DNA of 48,443 nt from Fimbriimonas sp. (GTDB lineage: Bacteria; Armatimonadota; Fimbriimonadia; Fimbriimonadales; Fimbriimonadaceae), in the NCBI GenBank assembly GCA_031292555.1, contig JARLGV010000031.1, forward strand, positions 1 through 48,443, in the 5' to 3' direction. Shown here piece after piece: positions 20,683-28,569 of this stretch. Numbering within the stretch: position 1 is the first letter of the stretch; every line of letters begins with the position of its first letter. A model generated the notes under the pieces. The model was given only the letters and a program-made list of their open reading frames with translations. It was not told where the DNA came from and ran no database searches. The translations under genes and the position numbers were made by a program.

Positions 20683-20922
20683 CTAGGGGATGCCAGCCTT
20701 ATCCTTGATCTTCTTGATCATGGCAGCCTTTGCAGATGCCGGCATCGGGCCGTTCTGGATACGATCGATCTGCTGTTGAGGGCTCATGTTCTTGAGTTCG
20801 TTGATCGCCTTGTCTTCGGTCGCTGAGTGTACGGGAACCGAGTTCGGGTTCGCGCAACCTGCCACCAGAAACGCGATCAGCGCCAGAAACAGCCCCGGTC
20901 GAGTTACTGTGCGGTCGTCCAT
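20683..20922 (-). CDS. Small lipoprotein coupled to a prepilin gene
   Basis: 79 residues from the ATG at 20922. A lipoprotein signal peptide is clear: charged start, hydrophobic [10 protein letters not shown], and a lipobox V-A-G-C with the modified cysteine at position 23. The mature part is short and ends in a helical, lysine-rich stretch (residues 49-79, [20 protein letters not shown]). The frame can be read upstream to 21120, but that extension is arginine-rich antisense-like sequence inside the prepilin gene and lacks a signal peptide. The start lies 19 bp inside the end of the prepilin gene, indicating translational coupling. It has the same position, order and cysteine location as the second lipoprotein at 32271-32453, although the mature sequences are not similar. 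Function unknown; a pilin-associated or assembly accessory role is inferred from context only. Confidence 0.8.
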
Positions 20923-21824
20923 TCTGTCGGTCCGTTGTTCATGTTCGTGCTGCTCACACCGTTGATAAGGCCTTGCCAGTAACCGGGTGACGCAAGATCG
21001 TAGGCCTTGAGGGCATCCCACATGTCGGCCGTTCCAACCGTTGCCTGGCCCATTACGTTCTTGGCGTGACCGTCGAAGAACGCCACGTTCATGCCGCGAT
21101 TGTGGGTGCTCTGAATACAAGACAGAGGGCTACCGCCTTCGGGCAAACCGTTCGCCGAGCACTCATAGCCCATCTCCGCAGCCCAAGCTCCCGGGAAGTA
21201 GACGCGCTGATTGACGATCATGATCGTGTTGGCGCCGTTCGACAATTGAGTCTCGCTGCCGACCGTCCCGTTCAATCCAGTAACTTCCCAGTCGGCGATG
21301 ATGCCGGGCGCCACATTGCCGTTGACTGGGCCGCCGCCTTCATTCCGACCGGCATCCTGGTTAAGCGAGTAGCCGCGAGGGAATCGGGTGGTTTCGTCTC
21401 CGGGGCCTTCGGCCAGCGGCCAACCCCAATAGATCGGCGTCACGTCAGACCAGGGAGCGTCGCCGATTGGAGACTGGAATATTCCACCGTTGTCCGGGAC
21501 GGTGTAGGGAACGCCGTTGTTGTATGGGCGGCCTCCGTTCTTGATATAGGGCGACGTGAAGTCCTTCCAGTTCATCATTCGGGCAGTCCACCAATCGTTT
21601 CCGTTGGCGACGACTCGGAATAGAGGAGTCATATCGTCGGAGTCGTTCATGTACATCGCAACGCCGAGACTCAGCTGCTTGTTGTTCGAAAGGTCGGACG
21701 TTCGTTTTGCCGCAGCCTTTGCCTGAGCGAAAACCGGGAAGAGAATAGCGGCGAGGATGGCGATGATCGCGATGACGACGAGGAGTTCGATGAGCGTAAA
21801 ACCGCTCTTATGCGACGATTGCAT
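20904..21824 (-). CDS. Prepilin/pseudopilin with N-terminal methylation domain (DUF1559-like)
   Basis: 306 residues. The leader MQSSHKSG is followed by the prepilin peptidase site G|FTLIE and a 20-residue hydrophobic helix ending in [14 protein letters not shown], as in the large pseudopilin families of Armatimonadota and Planctomycetota. The globular domain contains MYMNDSDDM and, near the C-terminus, [19 protein letters not shown], the H-x9-DG-type element of this group. A ribosome-binding site GGAGG precedes the ATG by 10 nt. It follows the GntR-type regulator gene by 39 bp and overlaps the lipoprotein gene by 19 bp, forming a three-gene operon. In related phyla such proteins accompany glycan-use genes, so a surface-displayed glycan-binding role is possible; the family is otherwise uncharacterised. 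Confidence 0.9.
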
Positions 21825-21863: not shown

Positions 21864-22967
21864 CTAGGATGGGTGAGATGAGAGTTGTAGGCCTGCATCG
21901 GCCATGACGAAGTCGGCGCTCACTCGAACCGTTTTAAGTTCGGTACGTGAGCCACTCAGCCGTTCGAGCAGCGATTCTGCCGCCGAACGACCGATCTCGT
22001 AGCTGCGCTGGACGATGCGATGCGTGCACCAAGGGGTGCGGAGCATCATCGGCGGCCAGTCGTTGAAAGTCGCAAGTTCCATTTGTTCCGGTATCGAGAC
22101 TTCCATGGCGTCGCACGCTTGGAGAGCGGCGGCGGCGAAGGAATCCTGGACGCAGAACAGGGCTGTGATCGGGTCCGGTTGGTGTAATAAGGTGAAAAGC
22201 GCGTCGTAAACGGCTTGATAGAACCCCTGAGGGTTCGTATCCAACTCGCGAGGGAACCATCGGGTTAGGGCGCTTACGTCTTCGACGCCTACCTCTGCGA
22301 GGGCCTTCCGATACGCCGCGTGGCGCTCACTGACAGTTGAAAAGTCGGGTTTATGGAACGAGAAGAATCCGATTCTGCGGTGGCCCCTAGCTTCCAACTC
22401 CCGAATGGCCATTAGAGTGGCTCCTTCGTTGTCGCTCATGACTGCATCGGCTTGGATTCCGTCCGGTAACCGGTCGAGGATCACCGTCGGGAGGCCGGAG
22501 TCAAGAAGTCGCTGGATGGCAGGGCGGCTTTTCGGGTTGCTGGTCGGGTACAGAATCAAACCGTCGACCTGATCCTGGAACTTCCTGAGCTGGCGGATCT
22601 CAGTCTCGAAGTCGCTCTTGCTCTCCGCGATCACGAGTTGGATCTCCTCGCCGAGAGTATCTTGGATGCCCCGAATCAGGTCGGCGGAAGGAAAGTTGTA
22701 GTTCTGTGCGAAGACGTCGACCAGGAAGCCGATTCGCGCCGCCTTGCGTTCGCTCTGATCGGCAACGACGGTTCCCCACCGTCGTTGGCGGACAACGATC
22801 CCTTGTCGCTGCAATTCTTCGATTGCCCGGTGGGCAGTATGACGGCTGACTCCCCATTGGAGGGCGAGGTCGTCCCCGGAGGGAAGCCTCATACCAACAC
22901 TTAGCTCGCTGGCTTCAATTTGACGGACGATCTCCGCCGCTATCGTTTTCCAAGATGTATTCTTCAT
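21864..22967 (-). CDS. GntR-type transcriptional regulator with LacI/PBP1-like sensor domain (AraR architecture)
   Basis: 367 residues. Residues 1-72 form a GntR winged helix-turn-helix (GMRLPSGDDLALQWGVSRHT, then AIEELQRQGIVVRQRRWGT). Residues about 76-360 form a periplasmic-binding-protein-like effector domain of the LacI type (RIGFLVDVFAQNYNF, DGLILYPTSN, GLPTVILDRLPDG, ALFCVQDSFAAAALQA). This fusion is the architecture of AraR and related sugar-responsive repressors, which release DNA when a sugar binds. It heads the operon with the prepilin and lipoprotein and is divergent from a GHL10 glycosidase-like gene; palindromic repeats in the shared intergenic region are good operator candidates, implying autoregulation and control of the divergent gene. 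The specific sugar is unknown. Confidence 0.9.
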   Translation of the reverse strand: MKNTSWKTIAAEIVRQIEASELSVGMRLPSGDDLALQWGVSRHTAHRAIEELQRQGIVVRQRRWGTVVADQSERKAARIGFLVDVFAQNYNFPSADLIRGIQDTLGEEIQLVIAESKSDFETEIRQLRKFQDQVDGLILYPTSNPKSRPAIQRLLDSGLPTVILDRLPDGIQADAVMSDNEGATLMAIRELEARGHRRIGFFSFHKPDFSTVSERHAAYRKALAEVGVEDVSALTRWFPRELDTNPQGFYQAVYDALFTLLHQPDPITALFCVQDSFAAAALQACDAMEVSIPEQMELATFNDWPPMMLRTPWCTHRIVQRSYEIGRSAAESLLERLSGSRTELKTVRVSADFVMADAGLQLSSHPS

Positions 22968-22988: not shown

Positions 22989-23004
22989 TATGTGCTAGGA
23001 AATA
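22989..23004. promoter_or_regulatory. Candidate operator copy 1 (TATGTGCTAGGAAATA)
   Basis: This 16-bp element matches the element at 23125-23140 in 15 of 16 positions. It begins 22 bp upstream of the regulator start codon, a good position for autorepression. It is an imperfect palindrome around CTAG, as expected for a dimeric winged-helix regulator. Confidence 0.55.
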
Positions 23005-23080
23005 TACACCACATTTAGTTCTACTCCACTCATTCTTTGAGTTTATTTACATCCAAGTCGGCAAACATGGGTCGTACCAT

Positions 23081-23096
23081 TTGTCACGTGCGACAA
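23081..23096. promoter_or_regulatory. Palindrome TTGTC-N6-GACAA, candidate AraR-like operator
   Basis: The 16-bp sequence TTGTCACGTGCGACAA is palindromic in 6 of 8 base pairs, with perfect 5-bp arms. Its layout loosely resembles the TTGT...ACAA operators of AraR, whose domain architecture the adjacent regulator shares. It lies between the two CCTAGG-type elements. Confidence 0.45.
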
Positions 23097-23124
23097 AAGA
23101 GGCGATTGGGCACTGTGTATTTGT

Positions 23125-23140
23125 TATGTCCTAGGAAATA
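23125..23140. promoter_or_regulatory. Candidate operator copy 2 (TATGTCCTAGGAAATA)
   Basis: Second copy of the 16-bp element, palindromic in 7 of 8 base pairs around CCTAGG. It lies 136 bp from copy 1 in the same orientation, close to 13 helical turns, which would allow looping by one repressor. Confidence 0.55.
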
Positions 23141-23441: not shown

Positions 23442-25823
23442 ATGCCGGATTTGGCGGTGATAGACTGGGCCATGTGCCTTCTGGCGGTTGTCTGCCTCGG
23501 TCTCTTCCATCCGGCCGGCTTGTCCTCACTGACACTCGATAGTTGCCGCTACGTTTCGACCGCCGACGCTCGATCTTCCTGGACGCCCTCTGATGGCGGC
23601 CAACCTGTCGAGATGGCCGAACGGGGAATCAGACTTCCTTTCGACGTCACAGGAAACCACGCACGAGCCTATTGGGATCGCTCCCTCTCAGTCGATTTGA
23701 GTCGGGTTGATCGGATTCGATTCTCGTTTTACGTTCAAGATTCGACTCGCCAGTCGACTGCGTTCAGCTTCTACTTTCAGAGCGACCGCGGTTGGTACTC
23801 GGCCGATTTTACAGCTGAGCCAGGTTGGAACAAGATCACGCTCGGCAAGGCTGTCTTCCGAACGGAAGGAACAGTTACCGGGTGGGATCATATCACCGGC
23901 ATACGTATCGGCGCATGGAAGACGGTCGACGCCGCGTCCAGTCTAGGACTAAGCGGCATCGAAGCGCTGTCGTCCGACATCGTCGTCGTTCTTGGCGACC
24001 GAACCCCCAACACATCTCCCGAGTTTGGCGCGGTGGAATCTCAAGCCAAGACGGTGTCCGGTTTGTTGGATAGCATGGGGATCGAAGCGGGCGGCCTCAC
24101 CGACAGAGACGTGGAGCGGGGCGCTTTGACAGGCAGACGAATCGCGATCTTCGCATTCAGTCCCGATATGTCCGGAGCCGAAATCGCCGAGGTCCGAAAA
24201 TTCGTCGAGGACGGAGGACACATTTTCGCCTTCTACAACGCTCCCGCACCAATGCTCAAGCTAATCGGCGTAGAGTCCATCGGGTGGAAGGGACAGGAGC
24301 GACCGGGGCTATTCAGCGCGATTCGATTCGTGCCAGGCACTATCCCCGAGCTTCCTTCCCTGGTACACCAGGCCTCATGGAACGTAGATATCGTTAAGCC
24401 CTTGCAGGATTCGGCCCATGTCATTGGTGGTTGGGTAGATGCAGACGGAAAGGACATCGGCGTCCCCGCTCTCGTGGCGTCGCCAACCGGCGTCTACATG
24501 TCACACGTACTGCTTGGCGACGATGTAGAAGGGAAACAAGCGATGATGCTTGCCCTGCTCGGATATTTCGACGCCGACGTTTGGAAAGAGGCCTGCGACC
24601 GCACCCGGGCTGGATGCGGCATGGTCGGCGATGCCAAGTCCATAGACGAAGCGATTGCCAAATTGGGCAAGCCTGCCACCGCGACGGCGACGCGCCAGTA
24701 CGAAGCCGGGATCGCGAGCGCCAAGAACGGTCAATACGCCGAAGCGATCAGACAGTTCCGATCCGCCCACACGGCTCTTGTCGCTGCCTATTGCACTGCC
24801 GCACCAGGAAAAGGCAAGGAGATGAGGGCGGTCTGGTGCCATTCCGCCTTCGGTGTACCGGGACGATCTTGGGACCAGGTCGCTAACAAATTGGCCGAGG
24901 CCGGGTTCAACATGATCGTGCCCAACATGCTTTGGGGGGGCCGCGCTTACTATCCTAGCAAGGTACTTCCGGTCGACGAAAGCCTCGGAAAGTCAGGCGA
25001 CCAAATCAAACTCTGCCTGGAAGCCGCCCACCGACACGGCCTCCAGGTTCACGTGTGGAAGGTTTGTTGGAACCTGTCCAACGCTCCTCAAGCGTTCCTC
25101 GAAAGGATGCGATCAGAGGGCCGCACCCAAAAGTCGCCGGCCGGACAGGACATCGATTGGCTTTGCCCATCCAACCCTGCAAATTTCGAGATGGAACGGG
25201 ACGCAATGCTTGAGATTGCTCGGAGCTACGCGGTCGACGGCATCCACTTCGACTATATCCGCTACCCGGACTCGGACGGATGCTACTGCGACGGGTGCCG
25301 CAAACGCTTCGAGGAGGCGAGCCAGATTCGCATTGCCCACTGGCCTCAAGACGTGATCACCGGTTCCTATGCCGATTCGTATCGCCAGTTCAGACGTTCG
25401 AATATCACGAGGCTCGTCAAGGCGGTTAGCACCGAAGCACGCCGGATTCGACCCGGTATCCAAGTGTCGGCTGCCGTATTTGCCGACTGGCCGGCTTGCC
25501 GAGATACAGTCGGCCAGGACTGGGTGAGTTGGGTGAAGAGCGGCTACCTCGACTTCGTATGCCCGATGGACTACACCGGATCGGCGACACAATACGAGCA
25601 GTGGATGATCAACCAAACCAGTGCGGTTGGCCGTTTCGTTAGGTTCTGCCCTGGAGTAGGAGTCACGCTCGACAGTACCCTCGCTCCGGACCAGGTCGTT
25701 CGGCAGATCGAGCTAGGTCGGAGGCACGGCTCGGCAGGCTTCATCCTGTTTAACCTCAATGAAGCGCTACTTCAACAGATCCTTCCGTTCCTGAGGGCGG
25801 GAATCTCTCGACCGATGAAATGA
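23442..25823 (+). CDS. Secreted GHL10/DUF187 family glycosidase-like protein with CBM- and GATase-like domains
   Basis: 793 residues from the first ATG; an ATG at 23472 would start directly at the hydrophobic segment CLLAVVCLGLF and is an alternative. Residues about 60-175 form a jelly-roll-like carbohydrate-binding segment (SVDLSRVDRIRFSFYV, PGWNKITLGK). Residues about 178-385 look like a flavodoxin/GATase-1-type alpha/beta domain (FSPDMSGAEIAEVRKFVEDG). From about 460 the GHL10 (DUF187) TIM-barrel begins with EMRAVWCHSAFG, then AEAGFNMIVPNMLWGG, HGLQVHVWKVCWN, DGIHFDYIRYPDSDG and YLDFVCPMDYTGS. GHL10 proteins are putative glycosidases, some active on peptidoglycan-linked or unusual glycans. 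The DYIRYP motif carries the likely catalytic acid. It is divergent from the GntR-LacI regulator and likely controlled by it. Confidence 0.85.
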   Translation: MPDLAVIDWAMCLLAVVCLGLFHPAGLSSLTLDSCRYVSTADARSSWTPSDGGQPVEMAERGIRLPFDVTGNHARAYWDRSLSVDLSRVDRIRFSFYVQDSTRQSTAFSFYFQSDRGWYSADFTAEPGWNKITLGKAVFRTEGTVTGWDHITGIRIGAWKTVDAASSLGLSGIEALSSDIVVVLGDRTPNTSPEFGAVESQAKTVSGLLDSMGIEAGGLTDRDVERGALTGRRIAIFAFSPDMSGAEIAEVRKFVEDGGHIFAFYNAPAPMLKLIGVESIGWKGQERPGLFSAIRFVPGTIPELPSLVHQASWNVDIVKPLQDSAHVIGGWVDADGKDIGVPALVASPTGVYMSHVLLGDDVEGKQAMMLALLGYFDADVWKEACDRTRAGCGMVGDAKSIDEAIAKLGKPATATATRQYEAGIASAKNGQYAEAIRQFRSAHTALVAAYCTAAPGKGKEMRAVWCHSAFGVPGRSWDQVANKLAEAGFNMIVPNMLWGGRAYYPSKVLPVDESLGKSGDQIKLCLEAAHRHGLQVHVWKVCWNLSNAPQAFLERMRSEGRTQKSPAGQDIDWLCPSNPANFEMERDAMLEIARSYAVDGIHFDYIRYPDSDGCYCDGCRKRFEEASQIRIAHWPQDVITGSYADSYRQFRRSNITRLVKAVSTEARRIRPGIQVSAAVFADWPACRDTVGQDWVSWVKSGYLDFVCPMDYTGSATQYEQWMINQTSAVGRFVRFCPGVGVTLDSTLAPDQVVRQIELGRRHGSAGFILFNLNEALLQQILPFLRAGISRPMK

Positions 25824-26856: not shown

Positions 26857-28569
26857 CTAGGACGGCGCCGCGTTATCCGTGTTCTTGTGGAACAGAGCCG
26901 TTCCAACTAGCGGCTCAAGGTCCATCAGAGGGTGACATGGATCGTACGATGCGGTGACCCAACCGTCGTTGACCATCGCTTCAAGCGCCTCAATCGCTTG
27001 CCGAAGGCCATGAGTGCCGGCACCCGGATGCGAACACCAGTCGGTCCGAACCAAGCTCATCACTCGATCCAGTTCTGAGTACTGGGTGAGGGCTTGCACC
27101 AGGAAGCGATAGACGCCTCGGGCAGGTAGGCTGCGGCCACCTCGCGACAGGGCGGGAACCCGCTCTACAAACCCCTCGTGGTAGATCGCGACGTCAACCT
27201 TGGACGCACCGTCCAAATTGAGACGAAACTTGTTGTTCCTGGCCACTCGCCATTCGGGAGGCGACTCGTGGAACGCGTTGACCAGCCACTGGGTACTGGC
27301 TAGCGTGAATCCGGCCACTCCGGCGCCGCCCATCTGAACAAATCCGCCCGAGCCCAGCCATTGCCATGCCGATTTTCCGGTGAACGGCATGCCGGAATCG
27401 CTCGCAAGCGAACCCGTGAACTCAATTAGGTCGGTGAAGTGTGCATTGGACGTGTACCAATAGTCAGCGAATTTGATGTGGGTTTTGATTCGTCGTGCCT
27501 GGCTCTTCTCAAACTCCTCTTTCAACCAACGAGAATCGTGCCGACCTCGGTCTAGCTCAGCGATGGTGATGGCGGCTTCCTGAGCTCCCACCATCGCCAT
27601 ACTGATGCCGGCGGCAAGGATCGGATCGGCGAAGCCAGCGGACTCCCCAACCAAAAACCAGTTTTCCCCCGCCATTTGGGATGCCATGAACGACCAGTCC
27701 TTAGTAGTAAAAATGTCCCGTTCTGGTCTCGCCTCCTTAAGCAAGGACCTCACGTTCGGCTCAATCGAGATTGCCTCGTCATAGATCTCGGCAGGCCGCT
27801 TTCCTGACCTCTTGTAGAACTCGGCGGGAAGAACCAAACCGATGCTGGTCCGGGTTGGCGTAATCGGAATGACCCAGATCCACCCCCATCCGATGCTGAG
27901 TACCTGAACCCTCGTTCCGCTCGCACCGATCGTGACCGCCCAACCTGCATCCTGCCAGTATCGCCAAACCGCGATATTTTGGAGTGAGGATGGTTCGACG
28001 ATCTCGACGCCGAGGGTCCGCCGGAGAAGCCCCACGTGGCCCGACGCATCGATGTAGTACCGCGCGCCGATGACAGAGTCATCCTCCAGCCTTACGCCTA
28101 TGACGGTTGACCCGTCGTGCAGCACCTCCGCGACCCGAGTTTTCTGTCTGACCTCGACTCCGAGCGATGCGGCATGGTCCAGCAGTATCGTGTCGAACAC
28201 GGATCGATCGACCTGATAGGCCGTGCTCGTGCGTTGCTCGGCGTACTCCGCCGGGCGTGGTCTATCTTCGTATGGCTGGCCGGCCAAGAAGTCGAAGTCC
28301 CATAGGTCGTTGGTAGAGCCCCAGCGATAGGTGGCGCCCACCTTGACTGGGAATCCGGCGGCCTCGACCTTGTCCCAGCACCCCATATTGTGGAGTACCC
28401 GGCACGCGACCGGCAGAAGGCTCTCTCCCACATGGTCTCGGGGAAATCGCTCCCGCTCCAACAGAACAACTCTGAGGCCGGGACAATATCGCCTCAGTAG
28501 CGAACCCACCGTGGAACCGGCCGGACCGCCACCGATTATTGCTACGTCAAAATCTGCGTTTTCGGACAT
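26857..28569 (-). CDS. Flavin-dependent halogenase-like FAD oxidoreductase
   Basis: 570 residues. The Rossmann FAD-binding motif is at residues 11-20 (IIGGGPAGST). FPRDHVGESLLP (42-53) and WIWVIP (230-235), the latter fitting the WxWxIP signature, are hallmarks of flavin-dependent halogenases as opposed to hydroxylases. GFPVKVGA places K76 where the proposed catalytic lysine of phenol/pyrrole-type halogenases is found. A second FAD motif NWFLVGESAGFADPILAAG is at about 303-321. Halogenases use FADH2, O2 and halide to form HOCl or HOBr and modify indoles, phenols or pyrroles, free or carrier-bound. The C-terminal about 200 residues are variable. Many members of this group in environmental bacteria are uncharacterised and might instead be epoxidases or geranylgeranyl-reductase-like. 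It lies 6 nt after the second sulfotransferase gene in a tight operon. No flavin reductase is next to it. Confidence 0.82.
   Translation of the reverse strand: MSENADFDVAIIGGGPAGSTVGSLLRRYCPGLRVVLLERERFPRDHVGESLLPVACRVLHNMGCWDKVEAAGFPVKVGATYRWGSTNDLWDFDFLAGQPYEDRPRPAEYAEQRTSTAYQVDRSVFDTILLDHAASLGVEVRQKTRVAEVLHDGSTVIGVRLEDDSVIGARYYIDASGHVGLLRRTLGVEIVEPSSLQNIAVWRYWQDAGWAVTIGASGTRVQVLSIGWGWIWVIPITPTRTSIGLVLPAEFYKRSGKRPAEIYDEAISIEPNVRSLLKEARPERDIFTTKDWSFMASQMAGENWFLVGESAGFADPILAAGISMAMVGAQEAAITIAELDRGRHDSRWLKEEFEKSQARRIKTHIKFADYWYTSNAHFTDLIEFTGSLASDSGMPFTGKSAWQWLGSGGFVQMGGAGVAGFTLASTQWLVNAFHESPPEWRVARNNKFRLNLDGASKVDVAIYHEGFVERVPALSRGGRSLPARGVYRFLVQALTQYSELDRVMSLVRTDWCSHPGAGTHGLRQAIEALEAMVNDGWVTASYDPCHPLMDLEPLVGTALFHKNTDNAAPS

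Follow-up and report, generated by a model that had tools for sequence, protein, structure and literature searches.

The analyzed window is a 48,443-nucleotide stretch of DNA from Fimbriimonas sp., a member of the Armatimonadota (contig JARLGV010000031.1, positions 1 to 48,443), in which a regulator gene on the minus strand (21864–22967) is followed 40 bp downstream by a pseudopilin-like gene on the same strand (20904–21824; PF07963, TIGR02532) encoding a prepilin N-terminal methylation motif. The two genes are likely co-transcribed, and the regulator-pilin pair is retained in 17 of 20 related loci. An intergenic region of 474 bp separates the regulator from a divergent GHL10 glycosyl hydrolase-like gene on the plus strand (23442–25823; PF02638), and glycosidase-like genes are present in the regulator neighborhood. 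About 4 kb away, past two glycosidase-like genes, the window also contains a gene for a halogenase-like FAD enzyme (26857–28569); genes of this kind accompany the regulator-pseudopilin pair at loci L045, L047, L049 and L051, placed either divergently from the regulator or downstream of the pilin.

The chimeric GntR-LacI nature of the regulator given in the initial annotation was confirmed by domain matches above cut-off: PF00392 at residues 8–68, PF13377 at residues 189–351 and PF00532 at residues 89–354. This is the architecture of the AraR subfamily, an N-terminal GntR winged helix joined to a C-terminal LacI/GalR-like, periplasmic-binding-like effector domain. The closest solved relatives of the N-terminal part are YvoA, AraR and similar proteins, and the best PDB matches to the C-terminal part are the LacI-family repressors 3h5o, ancestral LacI and PurR. 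In an alignment with the AraR DNA-binding domain (4egy), the run GVSRHT is identical in the two proteins. Arg-63, His-64 and Thr-65 of the AraR recognition helix contact DNA (PMC4494728, Table 1), and all three are identical in the regulator; the Gln-Gly residues of the AraR wing (PMC4494728) are replaced by Arg-Arg. Judged by its amino acid sequence, the regulator is of the AraR kind, within the AraR subfamily of GntR regulators.

Re-reading of the intergenic sequence confirmed two 16-mers in the same orientation on the plus strand, copy 1 (TATGTGCTAGGAAATA) at 22989–23004 and copy 2 (TATGTCCTAGGAAATA) at 23125–23140, which are identical at 15 of 16 positions and differ by one base. Both are near-palindromic, with dyad symmetry at 6 of 8 pairs in copy 1 (8 of 10 when extended to the 20-mer TATATGTGCTAGGAAATATA) and 7 of 8 pairs in copy 2. 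The CCTAGG center assigned to both copies applies to copy 2; copy 1 has GCTAGG on the plus strand. The start-to-start distance of 136 bp corresponds to 12.95 turns at 10.5 bp per turn, close to the 13 helical turns originally noted, and a near-integer value of this kind is not rare by chance. Copy 1 spans 22–37 bp upstream of the start codon of the regulator, 22 bp away from the codon and not abutting it, and overlaps a weak −10-like hexamer, TATATT (23006–23001, minus strand). Roughly 300 bp separate copy 2 from the start of the GHL10 gene, for which a later ATG may be the true start. A search for a good sigma-70 promoter in the plus direction near copy 2 found none. A further palindrome, TTTGTCACGTGCGACAAA (23080–23097; 7 of 9 pairs), is located between the two copies, is unique in the genome at up to 1 mismatch, and is a possible site of another factor.

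The symmetry of copy 1 alone is unremarkable for a 110-bp region (p about 0.34). Among 20,000 dinucleotide-shuffled versions of the 474-bp intergenic region, 30 contained a 15/16 repeat pair of any kind, and none contained such a pair with near-palindromic form in both members. The improbable feature is the repeat together with the double near-palindrome, not copy 1 symmetry by itself. When the genome (140 contigs, 6.46 Mb) was scanned with TATGTNCTAGGAAATA at 0 mismatches, the two matches were copies 1 and 2, and the degenerate pattern TATNTNCTAGNANATA at up to 1 mismatch again returned only these two, compared with 4 matches for the reversed control pattern. A genome-wide regulon for the motif was rejected because the 6.46 Mb contain no third site. 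Both matches adjoin the regulator gene, which speaks for the regulator as the protein that would bind them.

Phylogenetic footprinting, one of the checks proposed at the outset, was performed with 20 genomes of the genus; the closest regulator ortholog is from an uncultured Armatimonadetes bin. Orthologs with more than 50% identity were found in G019 (a divergent pair, 66% and 61%), G008 (58%), G012 (57%) and G004 (55%). Upstream of the 66% ortholog in G019, TATTGCCTAGGATTAA at −38 matches a window copy at 12 of 16 positions (shuffle p 0.002), and TATTTCCGGTGAGATA at −30 of the G004 ortholog likewise matches at 12 of 16 (shuffle p 0.003), single values that are to be weighed against the 11 upstream regions tested. 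The corresponding position of copy 1 is −37. No similar element was found upstream of the G008 and G012 orthologs, and G012 lacks it despite sharing the SRHTAHRA recognition helix with the window regulator. Because counterparts lie at the promoters of two orthologs, the lack of conservation that would have spoken against the initial annotation does not apply to copy 1.

Copy 2 fared differently: a second copy matching it was not recognizable upstream of any relative examined, and 16-mer pairs like that of the window are no general feature of the upstream regions of relatives. A second element in G019, TTAATTATTGGCAATT, was rejected as a counterpart; it lies 204 bp from the first, out of phase at 19.4 turns, and is weak (9 of 16 to the palindromic consensus). 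Across the 20 related loci the divergent neighbor of the regulator varies: in G019 its position is taken by a second regulator, in L047, L049 and L051 by a halogenase-like gene, and elsewhere by other genes. A GHL10 homolog adjoins the regulator in none of the 20. Since the divergent neighbor differs and the second copy is absent in relatives, sequence conservation does not support a role for copy 2, looping, or repression of the divergent glycosidase gene. Of the initial proposal, the chimeric regulator and a positionally conserved copy 1 are supported, a conserved copy 2 and control of the divergent gene are not supported by the related loci, and the in-phase spacing is the sole evidence for cooperative looping.

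Eight more distant orthologs of about 44% identity belong to another family (f19). Alignment was possible for seven of their upstream regions, and in these a TTGACA-17-TATAMT promoter is followed immediately by a conserved AATACCATAG-type box, which in one ortholog, as AATACCATAGTATT, is a perfect 14-bp palindrome. This box differs in sequence from the window element; it is palindromic and lies over the +1 of a strong promoter. As the conserved box sits just after the −10 in these orthologs, an operator-like box at the start site, with a sequence that varies between lineages, appears to be a general trait of the regulator group. Distinct motifs may be bound even by proteins of 60–70% identity (PMC4494728). 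For most single regulators, the best palindrome upstream did not score significantly. A palindromic motif sampler applied to the sequences upstream of 10 regulators with similar DNA-binding domains beat 92 of 92 shuffles; the result was dropped as support because the sampler had converged on sites of mixed kind, some −10-like and others unrelated.

The mechanism, a GntR-LacI chimera acting through paired palindromic operators, is already known from AraR, whose effector is L-arabinose. AraR binds cooperatively to two in-phase 16-bp palindromes with formation of a small loop; control of the Bacillus subtilis araR gene is through one box only (PMC4218819). The window regulator resembles AraR of B. 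subtilis in the fusion of a GntR winged helix to a LacI/GalR-type effector domain, in the SRHT recognition helix, in a near-palindromic 16-bp element, and in the glycoside hydrolase genes nearby. The 12.95-turn spacing of the two copies would be compatible with cooperative binding and looping of the AraR kind. It differs in its wing residues, in the pseudopilin gene that follows it, and in the element itself, as TATGTSCTAGGAAATA departs from the AraR operator consensus At(T/A)tGTaCGTAcaa(A/T)T. With repressors of the LacI/GalR/PurR family, in which paired operators and looping are also known, the regulator shares the effector domain, but its DNA-binding domain is GntR-type and not a LacI helix-turn-helix.

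On balance we favor, with some reserve, the interpretation that the AraR-type regulator represses its own gene through copy 1 as operator and has a second site in copy 2. A regulator dimer on copy 1 would cover the likely −10/start region and lower transcription of both the regulator gene and the pseudopilin gene downstream; binding of a small-molecule inducer, probably a sugar, to the LacI-type domain would relieve the repression. From its position 13 helical turns away, copy 2 would strengthen repression through cooperative binding and a small DNA loop, as in Bacillus AraR, or would instead extend control to the divergent GHL10 glycosidase gene. A loop between the copies is plausible, as the spacing permits it, and copy 2 may be a lineage-specific site that adds cooperative looping or divergent-gene control. 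Several observations count against this interpretation: the G008 and G012 orthologs lack a similar element, copy 2 has no conserved counterpart, no good plus-direction sigma-70 promoter lies near copy 2, and the AraR wing residues are replaced. In addition, TATATT, the left half that is conserved, could partly represent a −10 hexamer instead of operator, and the common GntR consensus GT-Nx-AC fits the element poorly, with GT in one half only.

The restriction of positional conservation to copy 1, the single box that controls B. subtilis araR, and the lack of conservation of the divergent gene would all fit a simpler arrangement in which copy 1 alone serves the regulator and no loop forms, copy 2 being a chance occurrence, a relic, or a site for the divergent gene only. 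A genome-unique 15/16 copy placed 13 turns away is improbable by chance, however, and we regard this arrangement as rather unlikely. Binding of both copies by a protein other than the adjacent regulator seems more doubtful still. Half-sites that break the GT/AC rule of AraR and of GntR regulators in general, the two close orthologs without the element, and the unrelated palindrome TTTGTCACGTGCGACAAA between the copies speak for another protein, but both sites in the genome adjoin this single regulator gene and similar boxes occupy the same position at orthologous regulator genes.

Direct repeats around a short segment can resemble target duplications, and the copy 1 TATATT resembles a −10 box; the pair might therefore be a by-product of rearrangement, with a target duplicated around a 120-bp insertion, or a mere coincidence of AT-rich promoter hexamers. 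Against this very improbable origin stand the near-palindromic form of the copies and the related element that occurs singly in orthologs, and a search of the same genome and the genus returned no further significant match to the intergenic segment. For lack of such additional copies, the idea that the 120-bp segment is mobile or inserted was rejected.

If copy 1 is indeed an autorepression operator, it would provide a concrete operator for one of many uncharacterized sugar-type repressors of Armatimonadota and make their link with pseudopilin genes testable. No relevant description of regulator-pseudopilin pairing in this phylum was found in the open literature. We tentatively suggest that the LacI-type and AraR-like repressors of Armatimonadota form an expanded set, each coupled to a pseudopilin gene of its own, that the GntR-type members are autoregulated through their own divergent start-site palindromes, and that the second operator copy in the window brings a newly adjacent glycosidase gene under control.

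The genome that contains the window has 48 Peripla_BP_3 matches and 122 genes with a prepilin motif; directly downstream of 27 of the 48 lies a pseudopilin gene on the same strand, and the DNA-binding domains of these 27 are either LacI-type or GntR-type. Upstream of a paralogous regulator with 42% identity (L038; G000:C39), a near-perfect 24-bp palindrome, CACATATAGCGCGTGCTATATGTG, spans about −47 to −23 and is the probable operator of that paralog. A palindrome of the TATCTCA-N5-TGAGATA type is common to the sequences upstream of the regulator start in L011, L067 and L037, three related regulators from two genera.
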